DNA from: Xenophilus azovorans DSM 13620
GTDB taxonomy: Bacteria; Pseudomonadota; Gammaproteobacteria; Burkholderiales; Burkholderiaceae_C
DNA length: 64,000 nt
Assembly (NCBI RefSeq): GCF_000745855.1
Contig: NZ_KN050767.1
Location: 96,802-160,801, forward strand
Direction of reading: 5' to 3'
In this document: positions 44,727 to 63,037 of the stretch, piece by piece
Layout: each line of letters starts with the position of its first letter
Numbering within the stretch: the first letter of the stretch is position 1
The notes under the pieces: generated by a model
The model's database searches: none
Told to the model about the DNA's origin: nothing
The model's input: only the letters and a program-made list of their open reading frames with translations
Translations under genes and position numbers: made by a program

Positions 44727-45920
44727 TCAGTGCCCGACGACGACCGGCACCTCAGCAGCCGGCGGCGTATTGCGGCTGCGCCCGCAGCGCACGAGCCCGT
44801 CGATCATCACCATGCCCACACCCGGCAGGTCGCCCAGTTGCACGCTTTCCAGCAGCGTGGCGCCCGAGGTGTGCTGCGCGCGGTCCATGAAGACGAAGTC
44901 CGCCGCGCGGCCCACCTCCACCAGCCCGCAGTTGAGGTTGCGCATGCGCGCGGTGTTGCCGGTGGCGAAGCAGAACACCAGCTCGGCCGGGATGTCGGCC
45001 ATCGACGAGATCAGCGCGACCATGCGCAGGATGCCCAGCGGCTGCACGCCCGAGCCGGCCGGCCCGTCGGTGCCCAGGATCACGCGGTGCGGGCACTTCA
45101 GCTCGATGGCCGCGCGCGCCGCACCGATGGCCACCTTCTCGTTGCCGTTGTGCACGATCTCGATGCCGCGCGTGCTCTTCTCGCACAGTTCGCACACGTG
45201 CTTCATCGGCAGCGAGGTGTGGCCGCCGTTGATGTGGCCGATGATGTCGGCATCGGCCTCCAGCACCGTGTCCTTGTCGATGTAGCCCGAACCGGGCACC
45301 GAGGGCCCGCCGGTGTGGATGGTGCTCTGAATGCCGTGCTTGCGCGCCCAGGCCACCATCTCCTTGGCCTCGTAGCCGGCCTTGACCGAGCCCAGGCCGA
45401 TCTCGCCGAGCAGCCCCACGCCGGCCTCGGCCAGCTCCTTGAAGTCGCTCTCGACCATGCCCTTCTCGATGACGGGCGCGCCGGCCAGCACCTTCACGCC
45501 GCCGGGGCGGAAGGCGTCGAAGGCGCGCTGCGCGGTGATGGCCAGCGCCTTCAGGCCGACGATGTCCTTCGGGCGGCCCGGGTAGTGCACCTCGCCGGCC
45601 GAGATCATGGTGGTGACGCCGCCGTTCAGGCTCGACTCGATCCAGTTGAGCTGGCTCTGGCGCGGCGTCCAGTCGCCGGCCACCGGGTGCACGTGGCTGT
45701 CGATCAGGCCGGGGGCGACGCAGGTCTTCTTCGCGTCGATCACCGTCTTGGCGTTCGACGTGTCGCAGTCCTTGGCCTTGCCGACCGCGGTGATCAGGCC
45801 GTCGTCGATGACGATGGTGTCGGCGTCGAGGATGGGCTGGTCGATGTCGCCCGAGAGCAGCAGCCCTATGTTCTGGATGACGACCTTGCCCGACTTGCCG
45901 GCGGCGGCTTCTGTTGCCAT
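44727..45920 (-). CDS. ena: Enamidase-like amidohydrolase (6-oxo-1,4,5,6-tetrahydronicotinate amidohydrolase candidate)
   Basis: 397 residues of the amidohydrolase superfamily. Metal motif GLIDSHVHP (His76, His78), further ligand regions in IHTGGPSVPG, IIGHINGGHTSLP and LGTDGPAGSGVQPLG. The sequence resembles the enamidase that opens the reduced nicotinate ring to 2-formylglutarate in Eubacterium barkeri. The assignment is strengthened by the 6-hydroxynicotinate reductase homologue encoded 2 kb away. The start ATG 45920 overlaps the end of the TetR gene by 55 bp. Another cyclic-amide amidohydrolase role is possible. Confidence 0.78.
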   Translation of the reverse strand: MATEAAAGKSGKVVIQNIGLLLSGDIDQPILDADTIVIDDGLITAVGKAKDCDTSNAKTVIDAKKTCVAPGLIDSHVHPVAGDWTPRQSQLNWIESSLNGGVTTMISAGEVHYPGRPKDIVGLKALAITAQRAFDAFRPGGVKVLAGAPVIEKGMVESDFKELAEAGVGLLGEIGLGSVKAGYEAKEMVAWARKHGIQSTIHTGGPSVPGSGYIDKDTVLEADADIIGHINGGHTSLPMKHVCELCEKSTRGIEIVHNGNEKVAIGAARAAIELKCPHRVILGTDGPAGSGVQPLGILRMVALISSMADIPAELVFCFATGNTARMRNLNCGLVEVGRAADFVFMDRAQHTSGATLLESVQLGDLPGVGMVMIDGLVRCGRSRNTPPAAEVPVVVGH

Positions 45921-46621
45921 TTCGATACCTCGTGGGGTGTGGTGGTTTCGTTGTTCTCGTCGCTGCGCACCGTGCGCAGCACCGTCTCGATGACGAAGTC
46001 CTCCCAGTGCCGGGCCGCTTCGGGCGACTCCAGCGGCTCGCCCAGGAAGCTGGTGAGCGTGTAGCGGTTGGACATGTAGAAGTAGCCCGTGGCCGCGATC
46101 AGCAGGTAGATGTCGCGCGCGGCCAGGTCGGCGCGGAACAGGCCCTGCGCGGCGCCGCTGGCGAGGATCTGCTCGATGATCGCCACCGCCCGCGAGGAAT
46201 ACTCGCGCGCCCGCAGCGACTTGGCGATGTGGCGCCCCTTGTGCAGGTTCTCGGTGTTCAGCAGCGTGATGAAGTGCGGGTTGGCGCGGTAGTAGCCCAG
46301 CACGAAGCGGATCACCTCGGTCAGCGCCTCCACCGGGCGCGCCATGTCCAGGTCGATGGCGGCCTCGGCCTCGTCCATGCGCTGGTAGATGTCTTCCAGC
46401 ACGGCGACGAACAGCCCCTCCTTGCTGCCGAAGTAGTAGTAGATCATCCGGTCGTACGAGCGGGCGGCGCGGCTGATCTTCTCCACGCTGCCGCCCTCGT
46501 AGCCGTACTTCGCGAACACCTTGGTGGCCGCGCGCAGGATGGCCTCGCGCGACGCCTGCGCCTGCGCCTCGCGCACGCCCGTCTTGCGCTGCGGCTTGGC
46601 GACGGACTTGCGGGCGGCCAT
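45866..46621 (-). CDS. TetR-family transcriptional regulator
   Basis: 251 residues from ATG 46621. N-terminal basic stretch, then the TetR helix-turn-helix (REAILRAATKVFAKYGYEGG, ISRAARSYDRMIYYYFGSKE). The ligand domain is divergent, with an AefR/RutR-like pattern (VLEDIYQRMDEAEA). It is cotranscribed with the enamidase and ferredoxin reductase genes, so it likely controls the nicotinate island from the 47.56-47.87 kb divergent region. Confidence 0.9.
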   Translation of the reverse strand: MAARKSVAKPQRKTGVREAQAQASREAILRAATKVFAKYGYEGGSVEKISRAARSYDRMIYYYFGSKEGLFVAVLEDIYQRMDEAEAAIDLDMARPVEALTEVIRFVLGYYRANPHFITLLNTENLHKGRHIAKSLRAREYSSRAVAIIEQILASGAAQGLFRADLAARDIYLLIAATGYFYMSNRYTLTSFLGEPLESPEAARHWEDFVIETVLRTVRSDENNETTTPHEVSKWQQKPPPASRARSSSRT

Positions 46622-46683
46622 GGCAGCCTCAGCGAATCCGGGCGGTGCACACCGCCGGCAGCGCCCGCCCTCCAATGGCACTG

Positions 46684-46787
46684 GAGGCCGCGGAGCAGGC
46701 CATGCCAGCGACACCCACGGAACCGGCTTCGCCGGGCCGTCGGGTGTGCCCCCCCGGGGGGGAGCCGCGCAGCGGCTTGGGGGGGGT
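46684..46787 (-). repeat. Dispersed intergenic repeat, copy C (divergent half)
   Basis: Between the FNR and TetR genes, reverse orientation. The half toward the TetR gene matches the other copies (GCGGAGCAGGCCATG; ACCGGCTTCGCCGGGCC). The other half is a different GC-rich run containing GCCGCGCAGCGGC. Confidence 0.7.
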
Positions 46788-47560
46788 CATTTTTCAGCGA
46801 AAGCGCGCTCGACGACGTAGTCGCCCGGCGTGCTGGTGTTGCCTTCCTTGAAGCCGCGCCCTTCGAGGATCTCCTTCATGTCCACCAGCAGGCCGGGGCT
46901 GCCGCAGATCATGACGCGGTCCTCGGCCGCGTTCAGCGGCGGCAGGCCCAGGTCGTCGGTGAGCTTGTCGGTGGTGATCAGGTCGGTGATGCGGCCCTGG
47001 TTGCGGAACTCCTCGCGCGTGACGGTCGGGTAGTACAGCAACTGGTTCTGGATCATCTCGCCCAGGATCTCGTGCTTGGGCAGGTGGTCGGTCACCAGGT
47101 CGTGGTAGGCCAGCTCGTCCACCTGGCGCACGCCGTGCACCAGGATGACCTTCTCGAACTTCTCGTAGGTCTCCGGGTCGCGGATGATGCTCATGAAGGG
47201 CGCCAGCCCCGTGCCCGTGCCGAACAGGTACAGGCGCTTGCCCGGCAGCGTGTAGTCGATCAGCAGCGTGCCGGTGGGCTTGCGGCCCACGATGATGGTG
47301 TCGCCCACCTGGATGTGCTGCAGCTTCGAGGTCAGGGGGCCCTCTTCCACCTTGATGCTCAGGAACTCCAGGTGCTCCTCGTAGTTGGGGCTGACGATGC
47401 TGTAGGCGCGCAGCAGCGGCTTGTTGTTGACCTTCAGCCCGATCATGGTGAAGTGGCCGTTGGAAAAGCGCAGCGCCTGGTCGCGCGTGGTGGTGAAGGT
47501 GAACAGGCGGTCGGTCCAGTGGTGGACGGTCAGGACGCGTTCTTCGCTGAAGGCACTCAT
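46787..47560 (-). CDS. Ferredoxin-NADP+ reductase
   Basis: 257 residues from ATG 47560. FAD site LLRAYSIVSPNYEE and FTMIGLKV; NADP site LFGTGTGLAPFMSIIRDP and VMICGSPGLLVDMKEIL; C-terminal GDYVVERAFAEK as in the bacterial Fpr subclass. It is the first leftward gene from the divergent region opposite the reductase gene, so it may supply reduced ferredoxin or flavodoxin electrons to ring reduction. A general oxidative-stress role is the alternative. Confidence 0.9.
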   Translation of the reverse strand: MSAFSEERVLTVHHWTDRLFTFTTTRDQALRFSNGHFTMIGLKVNNKPLLRAYSIVSPNYEEHLEFLSIKVEEGPLTSKLQHIQVGDTIIVGRKPTGTLLIDYTLPGKRLYLFGTGTGLAPFMSIIRDPETYEKFEKVILVHGVRQVDELAYHDLVTDHLPKHEILGEMIQNQLLYYPTVTREEFRNQGRITDLITTDKLTDDLGLPPLNAAEDRVMICGSPGLLVDMKEILEGRGFKEGNTSTPGDYVVERAFAEK

Positions 47561-47871: not shown

Positions 47872-49497
47872 ATGACCGAACACACCAAGACCGACGGCCT
47901 GCCAGGCATGGACCTGCCGGTGCTGCCGGAGGCCTCGCCCCTCGGGATGGGCAAGGCACCCGTGCGCAACGAGCGCATGAGCAGCGCCAAGGTCGAATGC
48001 AACGCCTGCCCGGTGCTGTGCCAGATTTCCGAAGGCCGCAGCGGCGCCTGCGACCGCTACGCCAACCGCGCCGGCGTGCTGGTGCGCGTCGACCCGGTGG
48101 TGCTGCTGCGCCGCGAGCTGCAAAGCGAGTCGCCCGCCCTGGTGCCCTTCGCGCGCGAAGGCGCCGAAGCACCCGCCGAGAGCGCGCCGCCGGCCAGGGA
48201 CTGGGACGGCGACCTGCTGCTGGCCGACCAGGTCTTCGTCACCGGCATCGGCGCCTCCACCACCTACCCTGACTACAAGCCCGCGCCCTTCATCGTCGCC
48301 TCCAAGGCGCAGGGGGTGGACATGGTCACCGTGGTCACCGAGGGCATCTTCAGCTACTGCAGCGTCAAGGTGAAGATCGACACCGACCGCTTCCTGGGCA
48401 GCGAGCAGGCCAACGTGCGCTACAAGGGCGAGGTGGTGGGCCACGTCACCACGGCCGAGTACGGCTCGCAGATGCTCTCGCTCGGCGGCGTGCACCACCT
48501 CACCGGCGGCAGCAAGAAGGAAGGCCGCATGACGCTGGAGCTGATGCAGAACCTGTGCAACAAGCAGGCGGCCGAATGCACCATCGACGGCGGCTCCAGC
48601 CTGGTGATCCAGGCGGGCAAGGCGCCCATCGTCAACGGCGTGGAGGAGCAGCGCATGCGCGTGGGCTGCGGCTCGGCCACCGTGGGCATCTTCGCGCGGC
48701 AGCTGCTGGGCCTGGCCGACGAGGTGGTGGTGGTGGACGACCACATCACCGGCGTGCTGACCGAGCACCAGGCCGGGCGCTGCCTGGCGATGCCGCCTTC
48801 GGGCATCCAGATGCGCGGGCGCAAGTCCACGCCGGGGCGCTATTTCCAGGTGGCCAACCCGGGCAGCGGCTGGGGCGGCACCGACATCGCCGATCCGCTG
48901 GCGATCATCGAGGGCTGGGAGCCCGGCGTCGCCAAGCCCGGCCTGCGCCTGCTGATGACCTCCACCACCGGCGAGCAGGCGCAGTGGTTCGTGCTGGACG
49001 ACAACCTGCAGCCGGTGGAGCAGCCGATCCCGCCCGAGGTGCAGAAGGTGGTGGACCGCATCGGCGAGAACTGCGAGCCCTCGCTGTGCACGGTGCTGTT
49101 CCTCGGCGGCGCCGGCGGCTCGCTGCGCGCCGGCGTGACCGAGAACCCCGTGCTGCTCACGCGCGCCATCAAGCAGGCGCTGGTCAACGTCACCTGCGGC
49201 GGCGCGCCGGCCTACGTGTGGCCGGGCGGCGGCATCACGGTGATGGTGGACGTGACGCGCATGCCCGACAACAGCTTCGGCACGGTGCCCACGCCGGCCA
49301 TCATCGCGCCCATCGAGTTCAGCATGCGGCTGGCCGACTACGCCGCGCTGGGCGGCCACATGGAGCACGTGATGACGCTGGAGCAGGCGCTCTCGCGCGG
49401 CGCCTGGCAGGACGACGGCGCGCCCACGGCGCGCGAGTGGCGCCGGCCCGAGGCCGTCAACGCCTGGCCGCTCGGCCAGCCCCCCCTCCTGGGCTGA
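47872..49497 (+). CDS. hnr: 6-hydroxynicotinate reductase homologue (iron-sulfur flavoprotein)
   Basis: 541 residues from ATG 47872 (AAGGAAC-GGAG upstream). An N-terminal Cys cluster CNACPVLC (Cys43, 46, 50) plus Cys60 suggests an Fe-S centre. The rest has a Gly-rich core (GIGASTTYPDYKPAP, TVVTEGIFSYCSVKVKID, VDDHITGVLTEHQAG, TPGRYFQVANPGSGWGGTD) resembling clostridial 6-hydroxynicotinate reductase. It would reduce 6-hydroxynicotinate to 1,4,5,6-tetrahydro-6-oxonicotinate. Heads the rightward operon; the downstream UPF0280 gene follows by 11 bp. Confidence 0.82.
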   Translation: MTEHTKTDGLPGMDLPVLPEASPLGMGKAPVRNERMSSAKVECNACPVLCQISEGRSGACDRYANRAGVLVRVDPVVLLRRELQSESPALVPFAREGAEAPAESAPPARDWDGDLLLADQVFVTGIGASTTYPDYKPAPFIVASKAQGVDMVTVVTEGIFSYCSVKVKIDTDRFLGSEQANVRYKGEVVGHVTTAEYGSQMLSLGGVHHLTGGSKKEGRMTLELMQNLCNKQAAECTIDGGSSLVIQAGKAPIVNGVEEQRMRVGCGSATVGIFARQLLGLADEVVVVDDHITGVLTEHQAGRCLAMPPSGIQMRGRKSTPGRYFQVANPGSGWGGTDIADPLAIIEGWEPGVAKPGLRLLMTSTTGEQAQWFVLDDNLQPVEQPIPPEVQKVVDRIGENCEPSLCTVLFLGGAGGSLRAGVTENPVLLTRAIKQALVNVTCGGAPAYVWPGGGITVMVDVTRMPDNSFGTVPTPAIIAPIEFSMRLADYAALGGHMEHVMTLEQALSRGAWQDDGAPTAREWRRPEAVNAWPLGQPPLLG

Positions 49498-49508
49498 GAA
49501 CCGCCGGC

Positions 49509-50390
49509 ATGCACGCCACCCGCAACCCGCTCGACGGCGGCCGCTGGCACTTCCAGCACGGCCCGATCGACCTGGTGATCCAGGCCGAGGGCGAGGCCGC
49601 CGCCGTGGCCGCCGCGCACGAGGCGGCCTGGGCGCGCTTCCGCGGCGTGCTGCAGGAGCTGGTGGACGAGCTGCCCGCGCTGCGCCAGCCCGTGGCGGCC
49701 GGTGCGCCGCTGCACGGGCCCGTGGCGCGGCGCATGTGGGATGCGTGCGCCGCCTACCGGCCGATGTTCATCACGCCGATGGCGGCGGTGGCCGGCGCGG
49801 TGGCCGAGGAGATCGCCGCCTTCTACCGCCGCACCGGCATCGCGCGCGCCTGGGTCAACAACGGCGGCGACATCGCGCTGCACCTGGCGCCCGGGCAGTC
49901 GGTGCAGGTGGGCCTGTTCGCCGACCTGTCGCGCTTCGACCTGGCCGGCACCGGGCCGCTGCGCACCGACGGCCGCTTCACGCTGCACGCCGGCGATCCG
50001 GTGCGCGGCGTGGCCACCAGCGGCTGGCGCGGACGCAGCTTCTCGCTGGGCATCGCCGACAGCGTGACAGTGCTGGCCGCCGGCGCGGCCGAGGCCGACG
50101 CGGCCGCCACCGTCGTCGGCAACGCGGTCGACGTGGCCGACCCGGCGATCCGCCGCCTGCCCGCCAGCCAGTGCAAGGACGACAGCGATCTCGGCGACAT
50201 CCCGGTCACCGTGGACGTGCCGCCGCTGGCCCCGCCGCAGGTGGCGCACGCCCTCGATGCGGGCCTGGCGCGCGCGCAGGAAATGCAGCGTGCAGGCCGT
50301 ATCCATGCGGCGATACTCGTCTGCCAGCAGCAGTGCCGCGTGCTGCAGCCCGCCGTGGCACGGCTCGCCGCAGGCTCCGTTTTTGCTTAA
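49509..50390 (+). CDS. UPF0280 (ApbE-superfamily) protein
   Basis: 293 residues. The middle carries the UPF0280 pattern: TPMAAVAGAVAEEIAAFY, RAWVNNGGDIALHLAPG and GVATSGWRGRSFSLGIAD, followed by ADAAATVVGNAVDV. ApbE relatives transfer FMN to proteins. Placed 11 bp after the reductase gene, it may be a maturation factor for that flavoprotein; that is inference from position. The N-terminal 60 residues and the tail are less conserved-looking. Confidence 0.8.
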   Translation: MHATRNPLDGGRWHFQHGPIDLVIQAEGEAAAVAAAHEAAWARFRGVLQELVDELPALRQPVAAGAPLHGPVARRMWDACAAYRPMFITPMAAVAGAVAEEIAAFYRRTGIARAWVNNGGDIALHLAPGQSVQVGLFADLSRFDLAGTGPLRTDGRFTLHAGDPVRGVATSGWRGRSFSLGIADSVTVLAAGAAEADAAATVVGNAVDVADPAIRRLPASQCKDDSDLGDIPVTVDVPPLAPPQVAHALDAGLARAQEMQRAGRIHAAILVCQQQCRVLQPAVARLAAGSVFA

Positions 50391-50403
50391 CGAACGCAAG
50401 ACC

Positions 50404-51048
50404 ATGATCGACATCCGACGCGTCTTCACCCAGGTCGAGCACATCCACCACGAATTCGGGCCGCGCGCGGCCGAGCCGCTGGTGCGAGGCGCCATCGCCG
50501 CGGTGCTCACCAACCCCTTCGCGGGCCGCTACGAGCCCGACATCCTGCCCATGATGGAACTGCTCGACCCGGTCGGCGTGGACATGGCGCACCGCCTGCA
50601 CGCCGCCATGGACGTGCCGCTGGAGAAGATCGCCACCTATGGCAAGGGCGCCATCGTGGGCGCCGCCGGCGAGCTTGAGCACGGCGCGCTGTGGCACGTG
50701 CCCGGCGGCTACGCCATGCGCGAGCTGCTCGGCTGGAAGGGCGACCGCGCCGCCTACAAGGCCGGTACCGTGGACGAGAAGAAGACCGGCCAGCCCGGCA
50801 ACGCGCTGTCCATCGTGCCCTCGACCAAGAAGGTGGGCCCGCCCGGCGCCACGCTGGACGTACCGCTGACCAACATCAACGCCAGCTACGTGCGCGGCCA
50901 GTTCGACGCCATCGAGGTGCGCGTGCCCGGCGCACCGGCGGCCGACGAGATCGTCTTCATCCTCGCCATGACGACCGGCTACCGCGTGCACGACCGCGTG
51001 GGCGGCCTGCGCGCCGAGAACATCGCCAAGTGGGACGGGCTGAGATAG
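50404..51048 (+). CDS. AA_synth-family protein (PF06684), copy 1
   Basis: 214 residues. Family landmarks: AVLTNPFAGRYEPDI, IATYGKGAIVGAAGELEHGAL, GNALSIVPSTKKVGPPGATLDVPL and the GYRVHDRVGGLRAENI end. No enzymatic function is established; the fold is chorismate-mutase-like from structural work on the family. It follows UPF0280 by 13 bp and precedes a diverged paralogue. The pair is probably part of the nicotinate route. Confidence 0.82.
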   Translation: MIDIRRVFTQVEHIHHEFGPRAAEPLVRGAIAAVLTNPFAGRYEPDILPMMELLDPVGVDMAHRLHAAMDVPLEKIATYGKGAIVGAAGELEHGALWHVPGGYAMRELLGWKGDRAAYKAGTVDEKKTGQPGNALSIVPSTKKVGPPGATLDVPLTNINASYVRGQFDAIEVRVPGAPAADEIVFILAMTTGYRVHDRVGGLRAENIAKWDGLR

Positions 51049-51069: not shown

Positions 51070-51654
51070 ATGCCAGCAGACATCCGCAAGATCGTGATCC
51101 AGGTCGACGAGACCCGCAAGGAACAGGGCCAGACCGTCGAGCCGCCCACGCGCCGCGCGGTGGCCATCGCCGTGATCGCCAACCCCTACGCCGGCCGCTA
51201 CAGCGAGAACCTGGACGAGCTGATCGCCATCGGCGAGGAACTGGGCGCGCTGCTCGGCGGCAAGGCCGTCAAGGCGCTGGGCATCGAGCCCGGCCAGGCG
51301 CACAGCTACGGCAAGGCCGCCATCGTGGGCGAGGGCGGCGAGCTGGAGCATGCCGCCGCCATCCTGCATCCCAAGCTCGGCGCACCGCTGCGCCAGGCCG
51401 TGGAGAAAGGCGCCGCGCTGGTGCCCTCGGCCAAGAAGCGCGGCACGCTGGGCACTGCCATCGACGTGCCCCTGGGCCACAAGGACGCCGCCTTCGTGCG
51501 CAGCCACTTCGACGCGGTGGAGGCGCGCGTGAGCGACGCGCCGCGCGCCGGCGAGATCGTGGTGGCCGTGGCCGTGACCGACAGCGGCCGCCCGCTGCCG
51601 CGCATCGGCGGCCTGAAAGTTTCCGAGATCGAGGGCAAGGACGGCCTGAGATGA
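51070..51654 (+). CDS. AA_synth-family protein (PF06684), copy 2
   Basis: 194 residues, parallel to the preceding gene: VIANPYAGRYSENLD, YGKAAIVGEGGELEHAAA, LVPSAKKRGTLGTAIDVPL and GRPLPRIGGLKVSEIEGKDGLR. It differs in the segment between GELEHA and the VPSxKK block. A 20-bp gap with a good ribosome-binding site (AACAAGGAG) separates them. The two might form a heteromer. Confidence 0.82.
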   Translation: MPADIRKIVIQVDETRKEQGQTVEPPTRRAVAIAVIANPYAGRYSENLDELIAIGEELGALLGGKAVKALGIEPGQAHSYGKAAIVGEGGELEHAAAILHPKLGAPLRQAVEKGAALVPSAKKRGTLGTAIDVPLGHKDAAFVRSHFDAVEARVSDAPRAGEIVVAVAVTDSGRPLPRIGGLKVSEIEGKDGLR

Positions 51655-51658
51655 ACCA

Positions 51659-51773
51659 CCCCCAGTCTTCGCGGACTTCGTTCCGCTTCGCCAACCCCCT
51701 CAAGGGGGCACATCCTGCGGCCTGGCCAAGCCAGTTCCGCGGATGTTCCCGCATGGCCTGCTCCGCGGCCTTC
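51659..51773 (+). repeat. Dispersed intergenic repeat, copy D
   Basis: About 115 bp, begins just after the stop of the second AA_synth gene. It is the uninterrupted form: CAGTCTTCGCGGACTTCG then TTCCGCTTCGCCAACCCC. Confidence 0.85.
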
Positions 51774-51816
51774 TGATCAAGTTGCGTCTTTTCCATTCCA
51801 ACCGAGGAGTCATCCG

Positions 51817-53028
51817 ATGAAGCATCTGCGTCTTGCGTTCAGCGCCGTCTCGCTGGCAGCGCTCACCGTCGCGCTCGTTCCCGCCCACGCCCAGGGCGTG
51901 ATCAAGATCGGCGAGGTCAACAGCTACAAGGCGCAGCCCGCCTTCCTGGAGCCCTACAAGAAGGGCATGGAACTCGCGGTGGACGAGATCAACGCCAAGG
52001 GCGGCATCGACGGCAAGAAGGTCGAGCTGGTCATGCGCGACGACAACGCCAACCCGGGCGACGCCGTGCGCATGGCCGAGGAGCTGGTCTCGCGCGAGAA
52101 GGTGGACATCCTCACCGGCGCCTTCCTCTCCAACACCGGCCTGGCGCTGGCCGACTTCGCCAAGCAGAAGAAATTCTTCTACCTGGCCGGCGAGCCGCTC
52201 ACCGACAAGATGACTTGGCAGGGCGGCAACCAGTACACCTTCCGCCTGCGCCCCGGCACCTACATGCAGGCCGCCATGCTGGTGCCCGAGGCCGCCAAGC
52301 TCAAGAAGAAGCGCTGGGCGCTGGTCTACCCCAACTACGAGTACGGCCAGTCGGCCGTGGCCGCGTTCAAGCAGCTGCTCAAGGCCGCGCAGCCCGACGT
52401 GGAGTTCGTCGCCGAGCAGGCCACGCCGCTGGGCAAGGTGGACGCCGGCAGCGTGGTGCAGGCGCTGGCCGACGCCAAGCCCGACGCGATCTTCAACGTG
52501 CTGTTCGCCGCCGACCTGTCCAAGTTCGTGCGCGAGGGCAACACGCGCGGCCTGTTCAAGGGCCGCACCGTGGTCAGCGTGCTGACCGGCGAGCCCGAGT
52601 ACATGGACCCGCTCAAGGACGAGGCGCCGGACGGCTGGATCGTGACCGGCTACCCCTGGTACGGCATCAAGACGGCCGAGCACAAGGCCTTCCTCGACGC
52701 CTACCAGGCCAAGTTCAAGGACTACCCGCGCCTGGGCTCGGTGGTGGGCTACAGCATGATCCACTCGGCCGCCGCCGGCATCGCCAAGGCCAAGAGCACC
52801 GAGCCGGACAAGCTGGTGGCCGCCTTCAAGGGCCTGCAGGTGGACAGCCCCTTCGGCAAGATCACCTACCGCGCCGAGGACCACCAGTCCACCATGGGCG
52901 CCTTCGTCGGCAAGACGAAGAACGACGGCGGCAAGGGCGTGATGGTCGACTACGTCTACTACGACGGCGCCGACGCACGCTTCCAGCCCCCGGCGGCCGA
53001 GATCAAGAAGTCGCGCGCCTCGGACTGA
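51817..53028 (+). CDS. ABC-transporter periplasmic substrate-binding protein (Liv type), copy 1
   Basis: 403 residues with a signal peptide ending AHAQ (about residue 26). Type I binding fold: IKIGEVNSYKAQPAFLEPYKKGMELAVDEINAKG, given here as EVNSYKAQPAFLEPY and MELAVDEINAKGGIDG, with the GAFLSNTGLALADFAKQKK pocket. First gene of a transporter unit with a fused permease and two ATPases. The ligand is likely nicotinate-type or another organic acid rather than leucine, judging by context. Confidence 0.9.
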   Translation: MKHLRLAFSAVSLAALTVALVPAHAQGVIKIGEVNSYKAQPAFLEPYKKGMELAVDEINAKGGIDGKKVELVMRDDNANPGDAVRMAEELVSREKVDILTGAFLSNTGLALADFAKQKKFFYLAGEPLTDKMTWQGGNQYTFRLRPGTYMQAAMLVPEAAKLKKKRWALVYPNYEYGQSAVAAFKQLLKAAQPDVEFVAEQATPLGKVDAGSVVQALADAKPDAIFNVLFAADLSKFVREGNTRGLFKGRTVVSVLTGEPEYMDPLKDEAPDGWIVTGYPWYGIKTAEHKAFLDAYQAKFKDYPRLGSVVGYSMIHSAAAGIAKAKSTEPDKLVAAFKGLQVDSPFGKITYRAEDHQSTMGAFVGKTKNDGGKGVMVDYVYYDGADARFQPPAAEIKKSRASD

Positions 53029-53037
53029 AATGACCCA

Positions 53038-53176
53038 CCCCCAGTCTTCGCGGACCTTGGCCTGCCCTGAGCCTGTCGAAGGGTTCCGCTTCGCCAACCC
53101 CCTCCAGGGGGCACACCCTACGGCCCGGCAAAGCCGGTTCCGTGGGTGTTCCCGCATGGCCTGCTCCGCGGCCTTC
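53038..53176 (+). repeat. Dispersed intergenic repeat, copy E with nested REP-like insert
   Basis: Same repeat as copy D but interrupted at 53055-53083 by CTTGGCCTGCCCTGAGCCTG and TCGAAGG. The rest matches, including the GCATGGCCTGCTCCGCGGCC end. Confidence 0.85.
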
Positions 53177-55226: not shown

Positions 55227-56002
55227 GCTTGTTGAAAGTCACCAATCTGGGCAAGTCCTTCGGCGGCGTGAAGGCCGTGGACGGCATCAGCTTCGAGCTG
55301 GCCAAGGGCGAGCTGCTGGCGCTGATCGGCCCCAACGGCGCCGGCAAGTCCACCACCTTCAACATGGTCAACGGCCAGCTCAAGGCCGACCAGGGCTCCA
55401 TCACCCTGGACGGCACCGAACTCATCGGCCTGAAGCCGCGCGAGATCTGGCGCCTGGGCGTGGGCCGCACCTTCCAGATCGCCGAGACCTTCGCCTCGCT
55501 GACGGTGGTGGAGAACGTGCAGATGGCGCTGCTCTCGCACGACCACAAGCTGTTCTCGATGTGGCGCCGCGCCTCGGACCACAAGCGCGACGAGGCGCTG
55601 GCGCTGCTCGACCAGGTGGGCATGAAGAGCCAGGCCGACCGGCCCTGCAGCGTGCTCGCCTACGGCGACGTCAAGCGCGTCGAGCTGGCGATCGCCATGG
55701 CCAACGACCCGAAGCTGCTGCTGATGGACGAGCCCACCGCCGGCATGGCGCCCAAGGAGCGCAACTCGCTGATGGCGCTGACCAAGCAGCTCGTGATCGA
55801 CCGCGGCATGGCGGTGCTGTTCACCGAGCACAGCATGGACGTGGTGTTCGCGTACGCCGACCGCATGATCGTGCTGGCGCGCGGGCGGCTGATCGCCGGC
55901 GGCAAGCCGCTGGAGATCCGCGACCACCCGAAGGTGCAGGAGGTGTACTTCGGCACCGGCAAGACCTTCGAGAAGAAGAAGCAGACGGAGCCGACGGCAT
56001 GA
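55223..56002 (+). CDS. livG: ABC-transporter ATPase, LivG type
   Basis: 259 residues. Walker A LIGPNGAGKSTTFNMVNG, the altered signature AYGDVKRVELAIAMA (weak LSGGQ, as in some LivG), Walker B LLLMDEPTAGMA and the switch His in FTEHSMDVVFAYAD. ATGA overlap with the permease and with livF gives strict coupling. Confidence 0.94.
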   Translation: MSLLKVTNLGKSFGGVKAVDGISFELAKGELLALIGPNGAGKSTTFNMVNGQLKADQGSITLDGTELIGLKPREIWRLGVGRTFQIAETFASLTVVENVQMALLSHDHKLFSMWRRASDHKRDEALALLDQVGMKSQADRPCSVLAYGDVKRVELAIAMANDPKLLLMDEPTAGMAPKERNSLMALTKQLVIDRGMAVLFTEHSMDVVFAYADRMIVLARGRLIAGGKPLEIRDHPKVQEVYFGTGKTFEKKKQTEPTA

Positions 56003-56736
56003 CGAGCACCCCCGAGATCCTGCTGGAAGCCAAGTCGCTGTGCGCCTGGTACGGCGCCGCGCAGATCCTGTACGACGTGCACCTCGAGGTGGGCCGCGGC
56101 GAGGTGGTGGCGCTGATGGGCCGCAACGGCGCGGGCAAGTCCACCACGCTGAAGGCGCTGATGGGCATGCTGGCCAAGCGGCGCGGCGCGATCCGCTTCC
56201 TGGGGCACGACCTCTCGAAGGCCGAGCCGCACCATGCCGCGCGGCTGGGCCTGGGCTTCGTGCCGGAGGACCGGCGCGTGTTCACCGACCTGACGGTGAC
56301 GGAGAACCTGGAGGTGGGCCGCCAGGCCGGCCGCCAGTGGGCCGACGGCAGCGCCGCGCCGCTGTGGACGCCCGAGAAGCTGTTCAAGCTCTTCCCCAAC
56401 CTGGGCGAGATGCCCGATCGCCCCGGCGGTCGCATGAGCGGTGGCGAGCAGCAGATGCTGACCGTCGCGCGCACGCTGATGGGCAACCCCTACCTCGTGC
56501 TGCTGGACGAGCCCTCCGAGGGCGTGGCGCCGGTCATCGTCGAGCAGATGGCGAACATGATCCTGGAGCTGAAGGCGCAGGGCGTTTCGATCCTGCTGTC
56601 GGAGCAGAACATGCACTTCGCCGAGCTGGTCTCCGACCGTGCCTACGTGCTGGAAAAAGGGCAGATCCGCTATCACGCCACCATGGCCGAGCTGGCGGCC
56701 AACGAGGACGTACGCCGCGCGTATTTAAGCGTATGA
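55999..56736 (+). CDS. livF: ABC-transporter ATPase, LivF type
   Basis: 245 residues. Walker A LMGRNGAGKSTTLKALMG, signature RMSGGEQQMLTVARTL, Walker B VLLDEPSEGVAP, and FVPEDRRVFTDLTVTENL, typical of LivF. Overlaps livG by ATGA. A dispersed repeat starts right after its stop. Confidence 0.95.
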   Translation: MTSTPEILLEAKSLCAWYGAAQILYDVHLEVGRGEVVALMGRNGAGKSTTLKALMGMLAKRRGAIRFLGHDLSKAEPHHAARLGLGFVPEDRRVFTDLTVTENLEVGRQAGRQWADGSAAPLWTPEKLFKLFPNLGEMPDRPGGRMSGGEQQMLTVARTLMGNPYLVLLDEPSEGVAPVIVEQMANMILELKAQGVSILLSEQNMHFAELVSDRAYVLEKGQIRYHATMAELAANEDVRRAYLSV

Positions 56737-56878
56737 CCCCCAGTCTTCGCGGACCTTGGCCTGCCCTGAGCCTGTCGAAGGGTTCCGCTTCGCCAACCCC
56801 CTTCCAGGGGGCACACCCAGCGGCCCGGCAGAGCCGGTTCCGCGGGTGTTCGCGCATGGCCTGCTCCGCGGCCTTCGG
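56737..56878 (+). repeat. Dispersed intergenic repeat, copy F with nested REP-like insert
   Basis: Starts at the base after the livF stop. The REP-like insert occupies 56754-56782 at the same place as in copy E. The repeat end, GCATGGCCTGCTCCGCGGCC, is intact. Confidence 0.85.
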
Positions 56879-56925
56879 ATCAGCAGGCTGATACGCATCC
56901 CCTTTTCAACCCGGAGGGCCTTGCC

Positions 56926-57648
56926 ATGACGAACACACCTCAACGCCGCCGCTTCCTGCGCGCCGCCGCCGCGCTGGGCATCGCAGGCGCCGTACCGCCG
57001 CTGTGGGCGGCCGGTGCGGTCAAGCCCGACGCGAAGTCGGCGCTGATCGTGGTCGACGTGCAGAACTGCTTCGTCGACGGCGGCACGCTGCCTGTCAAGG
57101 GCGGCGCCGAGGTGGTGCCGGTCATCAACGCGCTGGCGCCGAAGTTCCGCAACATCGTCGTCACGCAGGACTGGCACACGCCCGGCCACGCCTCCTTCGC
57201 CAGCGCGCACGCGGGGCAGAAGGCCTTCTCCAGCATCAAGCTGAGCTACGGCAACCAGGTGCTGTGGCCCGACCACTGCGTGCAGGGCACCGACGACGCG
57301 GCCCTGCACAAGGACCTGAAGCTGCCCACCGCGCAACTCATCATCCGCAAGGGCTTCAACCCCGGCGTGGACAGTTATTCCGCCTTCCAGGAGGCCGACC
57401 GCAAGACGGTGACCGGCCTGGCCGGCTACCTGAAGGCGCGCGGCATCAGGACCGTGTACGTCACCGGCCTGGCGACCGACTTCTGCGTCGCCTGGACGGC
57501 GCTGGACGCGCGCGCCGCCGGCTTCGACGTCTACGTGATCGAGGACGCCACCCGCGCCATCGACCTCGACGGCTCACTGGCCAAGGCCTGGAAGAACATG
57601 GCGGCCAAGGGCGTCAAACGCATCCAGTCCGCCGATGTCGCTGCCTGA
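56926..57648 (+). CDS. pncA: Tat-exported nicotinamidase (PncA-like)
   Basis: 240 residues. The N-terminus has a twin-arginine signal (RRRFLRAAAALG, with WAAGA as the likely cleavage zone), then the nicotinamidase core: VVDVQNCFVDGG (Asp44 nucleophile helper, Asp51 metal ligand), VVTQDWHTPGHASFA (metal His pair), IIRKGFNP (Lys) and VTGLATDFCVAWTAL (catalytic Cys). It should hydrolyse nicotinamide to nicotinate in the periplasm. Followed by a second binding protein gene. Confidence 0.88.
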   Translation: MTNTPQRRRFLRAAAALGIAGAVPPLWAAGAVKPDAKSALIVVDVQNCFVDGGTLPVKGGAEVVPVINALAPKFRNIVVTQDWHTPGHASFASAHAGQKAFSSIKLSYGNQVLWPDHCVQGTDDAALHKDLKLPTAQLIIRKGFNPGVDSYSAFQEADRKTVTGLAGYLKARGIRTVYVTGLATDFCVAWTALDARAAGFDVYVIEDATRAIDLDGSLAKAWKNMAAKGVKRIQSADVAA

Positions 57649-57661
57649 AAGGCCCGTGCCC

Positions 57662-58831
57662 ATGACGCCGTCCCTTCGTGTTTCCAGGCGTCGCGCCCTC
57701 GCCGCAGGCGGCGCGTCGCTGGCCTTCGGGCCGGCCCTGGTGCGCCGCGCGGCCGCCGCCAACGGCGTCTCCGACGACACGATCCGGCTGGGCCAGTCGG
57801 CGGTGTTCAGCGGTCCCGCGCAGGACTTCGGCGTCGACTACCGCGCCGGCATCCAGTTGAGCTTCGACCGCATCAACAAGGCCGGCGGCGTCAACGGCCG
57901 GCGCATCGAGCTGGTCTCGCACGACGACGTGTACGAGCCGGCGAAGACCGCGGTGAACACCACGCGCCTGATCGAGCAGGACAAGGTCTTCGCGCTGACG
58001 GGCTACGTCGCCACCGGCAACCTGGCGGCCGCCATGCCGCTGTGCGAGAAGGCCGGCGTGCCCATGTTCGCGCCGCTGGTGGGCACCACCTCCTTCCGCA
58101 CCAGCGTCAACCGCCTGCTGTTCCACGTGCGCGCCGGCTACGACCTGGAGCTGCGCAAGATCATCAGCCACCTCTCGACCATCGGCATCCGGAACATCGC
58201 GGTGGTGTTCCAGGACAGCGCCTTCGGCACCTCCAACCTCGCCACCTGCGAGCAGCTCGCGGCCGAGTACAAGGTCCCGGTGGTGAAGAAGCTGTCGATG
58301 GCCATCGCGGCCACCGACGCCAAGGAGGTGGCCGCCGGCCTCAAGGCCGCCGCGCCGGGCGCCGTCGTGATGATCATGGCCGGCCGCATGGTCGACGTGT
58401 TCATCCGCGACTACCGCGCCAGCGGCGCGGGCGCGCAGCTGTACACGCTGTCCGTCGGCATCACCGACGCCAAGGGCTCGGCCCAGCGGCTGGAAGGCAA
58501 GCTGGCCGGCCTGGTCACCGCCAGCATCGTGCCGCCGCCGCAGTCGCTGCGCGTGCCCATCGTGGCCGACTACCAGCGCGACCGCGCCGCCTTCGGCCAG
58601 AAGATCGACAGCTACACCGCGCTGGAGGGTTACATCGTCGGCCGCGTCATGACCGAAGGGCTGCGGCGCGGCGGCCAGGCGCTCACGCGCGACAGCTTCA
58701 TCGCCGGCCTGGAAAGCATCGGGCGCGCCAGCTTCGGCGAATTCCCGGTCGAGTACAGCGCCAAGAACCACAACGGCTCCACCTTCGTGGACCTGGAGAT
58801 GTACACCGGTGCCGGCCAGTTGCGGCGATAG
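57662..58831 (+). CDS. ABC-transporter substrate-binding protein (Liv type), copy 2
   Basis: 389 residues from ATG 57662 (GAAAGG upstream). N-terminal twin-arginine-like signal SRRRALAAGGASLAFG. Liv-type fold: IRLGQSAVFSGPAQDFGVDY, INKAGGVNGRRIELVS, FALTGYVATGNLAAAMPLC. No permease follows, so it may use the upstream transporter. Its last 23 bp overlap the start of nicA. Confidence 0.9.
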   Translation: MTPSLRVSRRRALAAGGASLAFGPALVRRAAAANGVSDDTIRLGQSAVFSGPAQDFGVDYRAGIQLSFDRINKAGGVNGRRIELVSHDDVYEPAKTAVNTTRLIEQDKVFALTGYVATGNLAAAMPLCEKAGVPMFAPLVGTTSFRTSVNRLLFHVRAGYDLELRKIISHLSTIGIRNIAVVFQDSAFGTSNLATCEQLAAEYKVPVVKKLSMAIAATDAKEVAAGLKAAAPGAVVMIMAGRMVDVFIRDYRASGAGAQLYTLSVGITDAKGSAQRLEGKLAGLVTASIVPPPQSLRVPIVADYQRDRAAFGQKIDSYTALEGYIVGRVMTEGLRRGGQALTRDSFIAGLESIGRASFGEFPVEYSAKNHNGSTFVDLEMYTGAGQLRR

Positions 58832-59315
58832 CCTGCCGCTCGCTCTTCACGTCAATGGCCGGCCGCATGCGCTGGCCGCGCCGCGCGAAGCCTCGCTGCT
58901 GCACCTGCTGCGCAACGACCTGGGCCTGAACGGGCCCAAGTACGGCTGCGGGCTGGGCCAGTGCGGCGCGTGCACGGTGCACGTCGACGGCGTGGCGGCG
59001 CGCTCGTGCGTGATCCCGGCGCACGGCGTGGCCGGGCGCCACATCACCACGCTGGAGGGGCTTGGAAGCCGGGCAGCCTTCCATCCCGTGCAGCAGGCCT
59101 TCGAGGACGCGCAGGCCGCGCAGTGCGGCTACTGCCTGAACGGCATGGTGATGCAGGCGGCGGCGCTGCTGGCGCGCGAGCCGCGGCCCGACGAGGCGCG
59201 GATCCGCAGCGAGCTGTCGGGCAACCTGTGCCGCTGCGGCACGCACGTGGAGATCCTGCGCGCGGTGAGCCTGGCCGCCGCGCGCCTCGCCGGCGAGGAC
59301 CGCAGCGCCCCATGA
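58809..59315 (+). CDS. nicA: Nicotinate dehydrogenase, 2Fe-2S subunit (NicA-like)
   Basis: 168 residues, starting at GTG 58809. It carries a plant-type 2Fe-2S site CGLGQCGACTVHVDG with a later Cys, and the second cluster CGYC...CRCGTH (QCGYCLNGMVMQAAALL; GNLCRCGTHVEILRAV). This is the small subunit of molybdenum hydroxylases. ATGA overlap with the large subunit. Substrate nicotinate is inferred from the partner subunit and island. Confidence 0.9.
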   Translation: MPASCGDSLPLALHVNGRPHALAAPREASLLHLLRNDLGLNGPKYGCGLGQCGACTVHVDGVAARSCVIPAHGVAGRHITTLEGLGSRAAFHPVQQAFEDAQAAQCGYCLNGMVMQAAALLAREPRPDEARIRSELSGNLCRCGTHVEILRAVSLAAARLAGEDRSAP

Positions 59316-62300
59316 CGGACCGGCGCCGCGCCAGCCGCCCGCGCACGCGGGCCGAATTCCTCTCGGCCGAGGGCGTGCTGGTGGTGGTGCGCGAGACGCC
59401 CGCGGCGGCGGCGCCGGCGCCCGGCCAGCCCCCCGCGGTGCCGCCGAACCCGGCCGAGGGCGACGAGGTCCTGCTCGCCGTCTGGGACGACGGCAGCGTC
59501 AGCGCGCTGAACGGCCACGTGGACCTGGGCACCGGCATCCAGACCGCGCTGGCGCAGATCGTGGCCGAGGAGCTGGACCTGACGCTGGCCTGCGTGAAGA
59601 TGGTGCTGGGCCACACCGCCGCCGGGCCCAACCAGGGCGCCACCATCGCCAGCGCCTCCATCCAGATCCACGCGCAGCCGCTGCGCCTGGCCGCGGCCCA
59701 GGCGCGTGCCTGGCTGCTGGCGCGCGCCGCCGAGCAGTTGGGCGCGCCGGTCGACGCGCTCGACGTGCGGCTGGGCATCGTGCGCGTGCGCGAGGAACCG
59801 GCACGCCACCTGTCCTTCGCTGCGCTGGTCGCCGGGCAGCGCACCGTGCTGCGGCTGGACACGGAGGCGAAGACGAAGCGCCCCGAGGACTACCGCATCG
59901 TCGGCACCGCGCAGCCGCGCGTGGACATCCCCGCCAAGCTGGCGGGCGAGCTGGTCTTCGTGCATGACATGCGCCTGCCCGGCATGCTGCACGGCCGCGT
60001 GGTGCGCCCGCCGTATGCCGGCGCGGACCACGGCGAGTTCATCGGCAACACGCTGGCGTCGGTCGACGAAGCCTCCATCGCGCACATCCCCGGCATCCGC
60101 GCGGTGGTGGCGATCCGCGACTTCGTCGGCATCGTCGCCGAGCGCGAGGAGCACGCCGAGCAGGCGATGCGCGAGCTGCGCGTGCAGTGGAAACCCTGGC
60201 CCGGCATGCCCGACCTCGCGGGCGAGGGGCGCGTGGCCGACGCCATCCGCGCCAACCCGGCCACGCAGCGCCTGCTGGTGGACGAGGGCGACGTCGATGC
60301 CGCGCTGGCCGCCGGCGGCGCGATGCAGCGCACCTATCTGTGGCCTTACCAGCTGCACGCGTCCATAGGACCGTCGTGCGCCGTCGCGCTGTGGGAGCCG
60401 GAGGACGGCAATGCACGGCTTCGCGTCTGGGCCGGCTCGCAGAACCCCCATGTGCTGCGCGCCGACCTCGCGAAGCTGATGGGCCTGGCCGACGTCGAGG
60501 TGGACGTGGTGCGCATGGAGGCGGCCGGCTGCTACGGCCGCAACGGTGCCGACGACGTGGCGGCCGACGCCGCGCTGCTGGCCCGCGCCGCCGGCGCGCC
60601 GGTGCGCGTGCAGCTCAGCCGCGAGCAGGAGCACCAGTGGGAGCCCAAGGGCACGGCGCAGCTCATGGACGTGGCCGGTGCGCTCTCGCCCGAGGGCGGC
60701 ATCGCGGCCTACGACTTCGAGACCTCCTACCCCAGCAACGGCGCGCCGCCGCTGGCGCTGCTGCTCACCCGCGCGGTCGAGCCCGCGGCGCAGGCCTTCG
60801 AGATGGGCGACCGCACTGCGCGCCCGCCCTACGCGTACGAGAACCTGCGCGTGAAGGTCAACGACATGGCGCCCATCGTGCGCGCCTCGTGGCTGCGCGG
60901 CGTGTCGGCGCTGCCCAACTCCTTCGCGCACGAGAGCTTCATCGACGAGCTGGCGACCGCCGCCGGCGTGGACCCGGTGCAGTTCCGCCTGCGCCACCTG
61001 CCCGACCCGCGCGCGGCCGAGCTGATCCAGGCCACCGCGCAGAAGGCCGGATGGCGCATGCGCACCGGCCCGCAGGAGAACGCCGACGGCGGCCTGGGGC
61101 CGGGCGGCGACATCCTGTTCGGCCAGGGCTTCGCCTATGCGCGCTATGTGCACAGCAAGTGGCCCGGCTTCGGCGCCGCCTGGGCCGCGTGGGTGGCCGA
61201 CGTCGAGGTGAACCGCAGGACGGGCGAAGTGCACGTGCGCCGCGTGGTGGTCGGCCACGATGCGGGCCTGACCGTCAACCCGGCCGGCGTCGAGCACCAG
61301 GTGCACGGCAACGTGATCCAGACCACCAGCCGCGCGCTGAAGGAGGAGGTGAAGTTCGCGCCGGCGCCGCCGTCAGCGGCGAAGGAGACGCTGCCCGGCG
61401 TGCTGCAGACCGGCGCGCTCCCGCAGGGCGTGGTCGCCAGCCGCGAGTGGGGCAGCTACCCGATCATCCAGTTCCGCGAGGTGCCGGTCATCGAGGTGCT
61501 GCAGATGCCGCGCCCCGGCGAGCCGCCGCTGGGCGCGGGCGAATCGTCCTCGGTGCCGGGCACGGCCGCCATCGCCAACGCCATCTTCGACGCCACCGGC
61601 GTGCGCTTCCGCGAACCGCCCTTCACGCCCGAGAAGGTGCTGGCGGCGCTGCACCCGCTGCCGGACGGCACGGCGCCACCGGCGACGGCCCCTGCTGCCC
61701 CTTCTCTCGCGCCGGATCTGCCCGCCACCGCCCGCTGGCCGCGGCGCAAGAGCCTGTGGGCCGGCGCCGGCGCGCTCGTCGTCGGCGGGCTGGGCATGCT
61801 GGCCGGCCTGCTCGGCTGGCGCCCCGCCATCGCGCCGGTCAGCTTCACGCAGCCCGTCTTCAGCGACCAGACCATCGAGCGCGGCCGCCGGCTCGCCGCC
61901 CTGGGCGACTGTGCGGTGTGCCACACCGCGCCGGGCGGTGTGCCCAACGCGGGCGGCCGCGCGATGGAAACCCCCTTCGGCACCATCCACACCACCAACC
62001 TCACGCCCGACGCGGAGACGGGTCTGGGCCGCTGGTCCTTCAGCGCCTTCCAGCGCGCGATGCGCGAGGGCCTCTCGCGCGACGGGCGGCACCTGTACCC
62101 GGCCTTCCCCTACACCGCCTTCGCGAAGACCAGCGACGACGACCTGCAGGCGCTGTACGCGTACTTCATGTCGCTGCCGCCGGTGAAGGCGGAAACGCCG
62201 GCCAACGACCTGCGCTTCCCCTTCAACCTGCGCCCGCTGATGGCCGGCTGGAACGCGCTCTTCCACGACGCGGCGCCCTACCAGCCCGTCGCCACGCAGA

Positions 62301-63037
62301 CCGCCGAATGGAACCGCGGCGCCTACCTCGTCAACGGCCTGGGCCACTGCGCCGCCTGCCACTCGCCGCGCAACGCGCTGGGCGCGGAGAAGACCGGCAA
62401 GCAGTTCCTGGCCGGCGCCTTCATCGACGGCTGGGAGGCGCCTGCGCTCACCGCCCTGTCGAAGAACCCCGTGCCCTGGGACGCCGAGAGCCTGTACGCC
62501 TACCTGCGCCATGGCCACTCGCCGCGCCACGGCATCGCCGGCGGCCCGATGGCCGAGGTGGTGCGCGAGCTGCAGCAGGTGCCGGATGCCGACGTGCGCG
62601 CGATGGCGACCTACCTCGCCAGCTTCAACCCCGCGCCCGCCGCCGATCCGCAGCAGCAGGCCCGCGCCGCCGTGCAGGCCGCCGCCGCGCAGCAGGGCCG
62701 CCTGCTCGGCCCGGCGCAGCGCATGTTCGATGCCGCCTGCGCCGCCTGCCACCACGACGGCGACGGCCCGACGCTGCTGGGCGTGAACACCCCACTGGCG
62801 CTGAACAGCCAGCTCGCCAGCGACCGGCCCGACAACCTGATCCGTACCATCCTCGACGGCGTGCGCGAGCCGGCGGCGAAGGACCTCGGCTTCATGCCCG
62901 CCTTCCGCGATGCGCTGAGCGATGCGCAGATCGCCGAGCTGGCCGGCTACATGCGCGCGCGCTTCGCGCCGCAGGCGGCGCCCTGGCCCGACCTGGCCGC
63001 GCAGGTGGCGCGCGTGCGCACGACGCCGGGGCACTGA
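59312..63037 (+). CDS. nicB: Nicotinate dehydrogenase, molybdopterin-cytochrome c subunit (NicB-like)
   Basis: 1241 residues. Residues about 1-790 are an xanthine-oxidase-family molybdenum domain (GHVDLGTGIQTALAQIVAEEL; active-site-type Glu744 in LGAGESSSVPGTA). A membrane helix at about 814-835 is followed by three c-type haem sites: CAVCH (867-871), CAACH (1013-1017) and CAACH (1143-1147). The layout matches Pseudomonas NicB, which passes hydroxylation electrons to the respiratory chain. It converts nicotinate to 6-hydroxynicotinate with NicA. Confidence 0.92.
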   Translation: MTDRRRASRPRTRAEFLSAEGVLVVVRETPAAAAPAPGQPPAVPPNPAEGDEVLLAVWDDGSVSALNGHVDLGTGIQTALAQIVAEELDLTLACVKMVLGHTAAGPNQGATIASASIQIHAQPLRLAAAQARAWLLARAAEQLGAPVDALDVRLGIVRVREEPARHLSFAALVAGQRTVLRLDTEAKTKRPEDYRIVGTAQPRVDIPAKLAGELVFVHDMRLPGMLHGRVVRPPYAGADHGEFIGNTLASVDEASIAHIPGIRAVVAIRDFVGIVAEREEHAEQAMRELRVQWKPWPGMPDLAGEGRVADAIRANPATQRLLVDEGDVDAALAAGGAMQRTYLWPYQLHASIGPSCAVALWEPEDGNARLRVWAGSQNPHVLRADLAKLMGLADVEVDVVRMEAAGCYGRNGADDVAADAALLARAAGAPVRVQLSREQEHQWEPKGTAQLMDVAGALSPEGGIAAYDFETSYPSNGAPPLALLLTRAVEPAAQAFEMGDRTARPPYAYENLRVKVNDMAPIVRASWLRGVSALPNSFAHESFIDELATAAGVDPVQFRLRHLPDPRAAELIQATAQKAGWRMRTGPQENADGGLGPGGDILFGQGFAYARYVHSKWPGFGAAWAAWVADVEVNRRTGEVHVRRVVVGHDAGLTVNPAGVEHQVHGNVIQTTSRALKEEVKFAPAPPSAAKETLPGVLQTGALPQGVVASREWGSYPIIQFREVPVIEVLQMPRPGEPPLGAGESSSVPGTAAIANAIFDATGVRFREPPFTPEKVLAALHPLPDGTAPPATAPAAPSLAPDLPATARWPRRKSLWAGAGALVVGGLGMLAGLLGWRPAIAPVSFTQPVFSDQTIERGRRLAALGDCAVCHTAPGGVPNAGGRAMETPFGTIHTTNLTPDAETGLGRWSFSAFQRAMREGLSRDGRHLYPAFPYTAFAKTSDDDLQALYAYFMSLPPVKAETPANDLRFPFNLRPLMAGWNALFHDAAPYQPVATQTAEWNRGAYLVNGLGHCAACHSPRNALGAEKTGKQFLAGAFIDGWEAPALTALSKNPVPWDAESLYAYLRHGHSPRHGIAGGPMAEVVRELQQVPDADVRAMATYLASFNPAPAADPQQQARAAVQAAAAQQGRLLGPAQRMFDAACAACHHDGDGPTLLGVNTPLALNSQLASDRPDNLIRTILDGVREPAAKDLGFMPAFRDALSDAQIAELAGYMRARFAPQAAPWPDLAAQVARVRTTPGH

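Follow-up and report, generated by a model that had tools for sequence, protein, structure and literature searches.

The nic cluster of Pseudomonas putida comprises NicAB, NicC, NicX, NicD and NicF, and the fermentation of nicotinate by Eubacterium barkeri uses 6-hydroxynicotinate reductase (Hnr), enamidase (Ena, PDB 2VUN) and the nicotinate dehydrogenase NdhFSLM (PDB 3HRD). The first three genes are said to have been reported in nine Proteobacteria by Alhapel in 2006. According to Shettigar 2012 (PMC3511419), Azorhizobium caulinodans, Bradyrhizobium japonicum, Rhodopseudomonas palustris and strain SG-6C carry clusters with the genes for the first three steps, an ATP-binding cassette (ABC) transporter and two unknown proteins; the same source cites Kitts 1989/1992 for a route from 1,4,5,6-tetrahydro-6-oxonicotinate (THON) to glutarate in aerobic Azorhizobium, and Bokor 2022 also assigns the THON route to A. 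caulinodans. Here, we describe an island at positions 44727-63037 of a 64,000-nt stretch (the window; G000:C8:96802-160801) of the 6.5 Mb, 132-contig assembly of Xenophilus azovorans DSM 13620, which we interpret, with a probability of about 85%, as serving the catabolism of nicotinamide and nicotinate in a betaproteobacterium of the Comamonadaceae type. A previous sequence-only reading of this DNA had proposed a hybrid pathway, in which aerobic hydroxylation is followed by reductive ring opening. The joining of a NicA/NicB-type hydroxylase to the Hnr and Ena steps is still the best reading and is probably right, but the hybrid is not new, such a cluster being already shown in four alphaproteobacteria by Shettigar 2012.

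From left to right, the island contains ena, tetR and fpr on the minus strand, followed on the plus strand by hnr, a UPF0280 gene, two DUF1185 genes, the genes of an LIV-type ABC transporter, a nicotinamidase gene, a second solute-binding protein gene, nicA and nicB. All the genes that had been named from the letters alone (the nicotinamidase, NicA/NicB, Hnr and enamidase types, the transporter, the TetR regulator and the ferredoxin reductase) were recovered as open frames of the expected families; those passed over were UPF0280, the two DUF1185/AA_synth genes and the second solute-binding protein, as well as the LIV type of the transporter. The same layout recurred, in a single order, in 80 Comamonadaceae loci compared by tblastn, and it is no chance arrangement. 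These loci, the best 80 of 201 confirmed places, were chosen by Hnr (78-89% Hnr identity) and belong mostly to Variovorax, with Xenophilus, Pseudacidovorax and other Comamonadaceae also represented; very near records may be missing from the set. With an identity threshold per gene, fpr and hnr were each present in 80/80 loci, tetR and UPF0280 in 79/80, ena in 77/80, the first and second DUF1185 genes in 79/80 and 78/80, and the transporter genes in 77/80 (first solute-binding protein), 75/80 (permease), 72/80 (ATPase G) and 71/80 (ATPase F). The counts for nicA (70/80), nicotinamidase (68/80), the second solute-binding protein (33/80) and the molybdenum part of nicB (30/80) reflect loci that end about 10 kb from hnr, which cuts many distal genes, and some misses are contig ends.

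Like the Azorhizobium/Bradyrhizobium cluster, the island belongs to an aerobic host and combines the genes of the first three steps with a putative ABC transporter for nicotinate and two conserved proteins without an assigned function; here, a TetR regulator, a protein of the ferredoxin-NADP-reductase type and a nicotinamidase that looks exported also form part of it. Hnr- and Ena-type steps are common to it and to E. barkeri, whereas its hydroxylase is of the cytochrome c type, not NdhFSLM, and no methyleneglutarate-branch genes were recognised. With the P. putida nic cluster it shares the NicA/NicB layout, including the three haem c sites; in contrast, none of the island genes, nor any of the 12 genes annotated to the right (one of which lacks a Pfam match), was recognised as being of the NicC, NicX, NicD or NicF type, no genome-wide search having been made. 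The sequence-only reading saw no NicC-, NicX- or NicD-type genes in the window; the present negative covers the annotated stretches, the window from 30 to 44 kb having been read as open reading frames only.

The gene families, the synteny, the co-occurrence and the ApbE-like fold of the UPF0280 model are observed; from them we infer the substrates, the electron route, the export of the nicotinamidase, the branch to glutarate and what UPF0280 and DUF1185 do, as follows. Nicotinamide would be deamidated, probably outside the cytoplasm, and nicotinate would be taken up through the LIV-type transporter. The membrane-anchored NicA/NicB would form 6-hydroxynicotinate, delivering electrons to the respiratory chain via its cytochrome c part, and Hnr, fed by NADPH via the ferredoxin-NADP-reductase-type protein, would reduce this compound to THON. 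Enamidase would then yield 2-formylglutarate and ammonium, and genes located elsewhere would lead through glutarate to glutaryl-CoA. UPF0280 would serve as a dedicated Hnr maturation factor, most likely a covalent-flavin transferase, and the DUF1185 pair would act at the 2-formylglutarate/enamine stage, most likely in the decarboxylation to glutarate semialdehyde.

The gene hnr (47872..49497, +) encodes a protein of 541 residues that matched no model of Pfam or NCBIfam at E 0.001 (relaxing the limit to E 10 brought up GCV_T_C alone, with 0.083) and nothing in the PDB better than E 1.3 in a sequence search or E 1 in a profile search; the reductase of a known pathway thus matches no Pfam, NCBIfam or PDB family here. 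Its assignment comes through annotated homologues: 26 of 72,556 plasmid records matched it, and several of these relatives are named 6-hydroxynicotinate reductase, others being hypothetical or unannotated. Moreover, E. barkeri Hnr is 42% identical to a Bradyrhizobiaceae protein in a like cluster, according to Shettigar 2012 (PMC3511419). Through these links, the 541-residue protein is probably of the Hnr type. Seven cysteines were invariant in 31 aligned homologues, and residue 214, a candidate flavin site, was Ser or Thr in 109/109 loci. E. barkeri Hnr presumably carries three Fe-S clusters and a covalent flavin. Divergent from hnr lies fpr (46787..47557, -), whose product is a flavoprotein of the ferredoxin-NADP-reductase type, although it scored 134 bits with its best NCBIfam model, below the cut-off of 390; we propose that it feeds electrons to Hnr. 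A relationship of Hnr to DUF39/HcyBio was considered and rejected, the Pfam HcyBio model matching 0/31 members at E 1. Separately, a weak match to GCV_T_C, the C-terminal barrel of the glycine-cleavage T-protein, was seen at residues 167-199 in 31/31 members (best E 0.0027; below the Pfam cut-off in the member shown), which is a possible hint to the Hnr fold.

The 397-residue product of ena (44727..45920, -) matched the characterised E. barkeri enamidase 2VUN over nearly its full length (residues 11-390 against 2-381; 366.6 bits, E 1.7e-108). Residues H76, H78, E173, H202, H229 and D285, which we take to be the ligands of the binuclear metal site, aligned with identical residues in 2VUN, and the protein probably has the predicted activity of hydrolysing THON to 2-formylglutarate. 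In a wider sample of 398 Pseudomonadota genomes, Hnr was found in 32 and was absent from 366 (the best candidates scored per genome were two for HyuA, three for Hnr and five for UPF0280). Full-length enamidase (at least 59% identity) was present in 18 of the 32 Hnr genomes; the other 14 gave weak partial matches (7) or none (7). All 14, together with two genomes that have enamidase, carried an orthologous HyuA (at least 62% identity to the copy in locus L125), and the remaining HyuA copies in the Hnr genomes had at most 46% identity over most of their length. At a threshold of E 1e-220, set after seeing this gap between 62% and 46%, the HyuA orthologue occurred in 16/398 genomes, every one with Hnr, and in 0/366 of the others; lower-identity paralogues are common, with 30/32 Hnr genomes matching at E 0.001. 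In the 16 genomes, HyuA lay within 10 kb of hnr (8), farther away on the same contig (2) or on other contigs (6). Since families f38 and f55 each contain both enamidase-type and HyuA-type genomes, the split is not the effect of one clade; the genomes are related and not independent.

Pfam identified the L125 protein as hydantoinase/oxoprolinase A and a protein encoded next to the L119 copy as B. Among the genomes lacking enamidase, HyuA-type genes close to hnr were seen in loci L119, L121, L122, L125, L127 and L128, and HyuB in two of the six loci with HyuA near hnr, to which its search was limited. HyuA/HyuB are ATP-dependent lactam hydrolases and would suit THON as a substrate. HyuA is, judging from the sequences, a probable alternative ring opener in the enamidase-less Hnr genomes; the island studied here carries the enamidase form. 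A phrase search with one wording found no literature linking hydantoinase to nicotinic acid degradation. If true, the swap would represent two unrelated enzymes for one step of aerobic pyridine breakdown, and would bear on the degradation of 6-chloronicotinate, from neonicotinoids.

The two DUF1185/AA_synth proteins (50404..51048 and 51070..51654, both +) matched PF06684 with 213 and 237 bits, well above the cut-off of 27 (E 2.6e-63 for the first), and the second is a relative of the solved structure 2QTP. PF06684 was present in 59/398 genomes, namely in 31 of the 32 with Hnr (G139 being the exception) and in 28 of the 366 others. The structure paper of the family links it to amino acids, in part through LIV-transporter neighbours; because the LIV transporter here belongs to a nicotinate island, the label 'amino acid synthesis' is probably a misnomer. 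Twelve DUF1185 loci away from Hnr were also compared, 11 from the 28 Hnr-less genomes and one at a second site of the X. azovorans genome, two of the 12 having supplied the queries. Nine of them contained an alpha/beta hydrolase and one type of aldehyde dehydrogenase, and seven also a luciferase-like oxygenase, a set that presumably corresponds to the trigonelline cluster; the second X. azovorans site had the dehydrogenase only, and two loci had none. The trigonelline (tgn) cluster, compared here through DUF1185 neighbourhoods alone, shares with the island a DUF1185 gene (TgnF) beside catabolic genes and differs in that its ring is opened by an oxygenase. Given that the nicotinate (THON) and trigonelline routes both pass through a 2-formyl dicarboxylate, we propose that DUF1185 acts on 2-formylglutarate and, tentatively, that it is a decarboxylase, an assignment that we hold at clearly less than even odds. 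A close rival, not far short of an even chance, is that these proteins act on the ring-opened product as enamine/imine hydrolases or as tautomerases and are no decarboxylases. RidA-type deaminases have the DUF1185 fold, and HcdD, a member of the family in coumarin degradation, has no evident decarboxylation to do, its authors having seen no effect of it. Decarboxylation is favoured instead by TgnF, a homologue of HcdD, reported to stimulate succinate semialdehyde oxidation, which follows a step where a formyl acid loses CO2. The second DUF1185 pair of the same genome (G000:C34:7825-8968, L137), one member of which is weak (62 bits), adjoins an aldehyde dehydrogenase and an LIV-type ABC ATPase gene, and probably belongs to another catabolic route.

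Beside hnr lies the gene of the UPF0280/COG2122 protein (49509..50390, +; NCBIfam and fold search). In the sample of 398 genomes, UPF0280 exceeded its cut-off in exactly the 32 with Hnr, and it very likely works for Hnr. In the fold search with its predicted model, rows 2-20 were all ApbE-type entries, and because the model has the fold of the ApbE flavin transferase, we propose that UPF0280 flavinylates Hnr; on this model, its being the flavin transferase of Hnr is an evenly balanced proposition. It scored 20.6 bits with Pfam ApbE, under the gathering score of 25.6, and is thus ApbE-like and no ApbE member. The catalytic residue of ApbE is presumably a histidine, an H257G mutant entry being on record, and inspection by eye showed no histidine in the window UPF0280 between its TSG motif and its ADAAAT motif. 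The ApbE score below the cut-off would also suit a protein that helps Hnr with Fe-S, persulfide or assembly and transfers no flavin, like the role that others suggested with DUF39. For COG2122, Price 2018 suggests a persulfide role, and states that COG2122, DUF39 and NIL/ferredoxin proteins are needed for homocysteine synthesis in Desulfovibrio. That pathway resembles the present case in tying a UPF0280 protein to one partner enzyme and differs from it in that the X. azovorans genome gave no DUF39 match. A helper of this kind has an appreciable, though minority, likelihood, because ApbE-type entries fill the fold rows throughout and E. barkeri Hnr presumably has a covalent flavin. No role of UPF0280 or DUF1185 in nicotinate breakdown was found in the limited literature searched. 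The exact co-occurrence with Hnr offers a sharp and cheap handle on whether the UPF0280 family installs flavin. The joint proposal that UPF0280 is an Hnr flavin transferase or maturase, that DUF1185 proteins are 2-formyl-dicarboxylate decarboxylases and that enamidase is replaced by HyuA/HyuB in 14 of the 32 genomes is unlikely to be right in every part; if true, three little-known families would gain roles in one route, and DUF1185 would take part in both nicotinate and trigonelline breakdown.

The hydroxylase comprises a nicA-type 2Fe-2S subunit (58809..59315, +; PF01799, PF00111) and a nicB-type molybdenum subunit with a C-terminal three-haem cytochrome c part (59312..63037, +; Pfam and CxxCH motifs), which is the NicA/NicB architecture. 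Since a single hydrophobic stretch at about residue 817 precedes the CxxCH motifs at residues 867, 1013 and 1143, the molybdenum part would be cytoplasmic and the cytochrome part periplasmic. The hydroxylase type varied among 16 Hnr genomes read at 20 kb (17 loci, with G379 in two): seven had NicA/NicB, eight an enzyme dependent on flavin adenine dinucleotide (FAD), in which an FAD subunit (PF00941 in L125) adjoins a larger protein that begins like NicA, and one (G167) had neither.

Several observations weigh against the reading of the island as a nicotinate pathway. In the PDB, NicB is most similar to parts of other cytochrome-linked enzymes, namely the cytochrome subunits of dehydrogenases for sugars, alcohols and aldehydes and the large subunit of an aldehyde dehydrogenase. 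The aldehyde dehydrogenase subunits 8GY3_A and 8GY3_C scored 323 and 143 bits, against 90 and 45 bits for nicotinate dehydrogenase 3HRD, and for this reason we take the NicA/NicB specificity from context. These scores would agree with a late-pathway aldehyde dehydrogenase, acting for example on glutarate semialdehyde, with nicotinate hydroxylated elsewhere; this is improbable, as the NicA/NicB and FAD-dependent molybdenum hydroxylases never occurred together within 20 kb, which fits interchangeable nicotinate hydroxylases. In addition, the seven invariant cysteines of Hnr would not suffice to bind three Fe-S clusters, as presumed for the E. barkeri enzyme, through cysteine ligands alone. Its predicted model was poor (predicted local distance difference test 66), with no PDB match at E 0.001 in the fold search; a model of this quality does not allow the fold to be called new. 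Among the 32 Hnr genomes, Hnr is in two pieces in G016 and has one internal stop in G367, and UPF0280 has one internal stop in G386. Finally, none of the genes next to the island was recognised as belonging to the glutarate branch, and the search for 2-formylglutarate-processing genes to the right of the window, where the sequence-only reading had suggested looking, came out negative, none being evident in the 14 kb beyond.

The transporter (51817-56736) consists of an LIV-type solute-binding protein (51817..53028, +; PF13458), fused LIV-type permeases (53259..55226, +; PF02653 in two stretches) and the ATPases G (55223..56002, +; PF00005, PF12399) and F (55999..56736, +; PF00005). It is followed by the nicotinamidase gene (56926..57648, +; isochorismatase family), whose product has a twin-arginine-like N terminus and narrowly passed the NCBIfam threshold for nicotinamidase (180 bits, the cut-off being 174), and by the second solute-binding protein gene (57635..58831, +; PF13458). 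A different N-heterocycle, such as a substituted nicotinate handled by the same chemistry, is a very unlikely substrate, given that a nicotinamidase-family gene in the operon of 68/80 loci points to nicotinamide and nicotinate, even if the LIV type of the transporter gives no clue to what it carries and strain SG-6C uses a separate enzyme to channel 6-chloronicotinate into a pathway of this kind, as described in Shettigar 2012 (PMC3511419). A loose twin-arginine scan was positive in 68 of the 72 loci with a nicotinamidase homologue; among the four negatives, the L113 copy is truncated where the locus stops, and L124 and L125 are distant copies from another family. Export of the nicotinamidase is, by this motif, likely in the Comamonadaceae group. 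A literature search limited to the phrases periplasmic, extracellular or secreted nicotinamidase found none. The TetR-family regulator (45866..46630, -; PF00440, PF17938) has an uncertain start.

The 14 kb to the right of the window contain two citrate-synthase-like, two LysR, major facilitator superfamily, zinc-type dehydrogenase, CoA-transferase, TctC and CHAD/CYTH genes, one gene without a Pfam match and, some 5 kb to the right of the island, a gene of the beta-lactamase family (L002:5761-6657, -). Directly right of nicB lies a ketopantoate-reductase-like gene (window 63183-63998, continuing into L002:985-1938). It was considered as a 2-formylglutarate reductase and rejected, no homologue being found at E 1e-12 in other loci in a search that extended, in L113, about 11 kb past nicB, most other loci ending before that position; it is not counted as an island member. 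An intergenic repeat of about 80-145 bp is dispersed over the island and elsewhere in the window, its copies being 81-96% identical and lying on both strands (51656-51800, with copies at 9535-9655, 29860-29976, 53083-53176, 56782-56882 and 46685-46762). To the left of ena there is an inverted repeat of 118 nt, 85% complementary, with arms at 44184-44301 and 44553-44670 and 251 nt between them.

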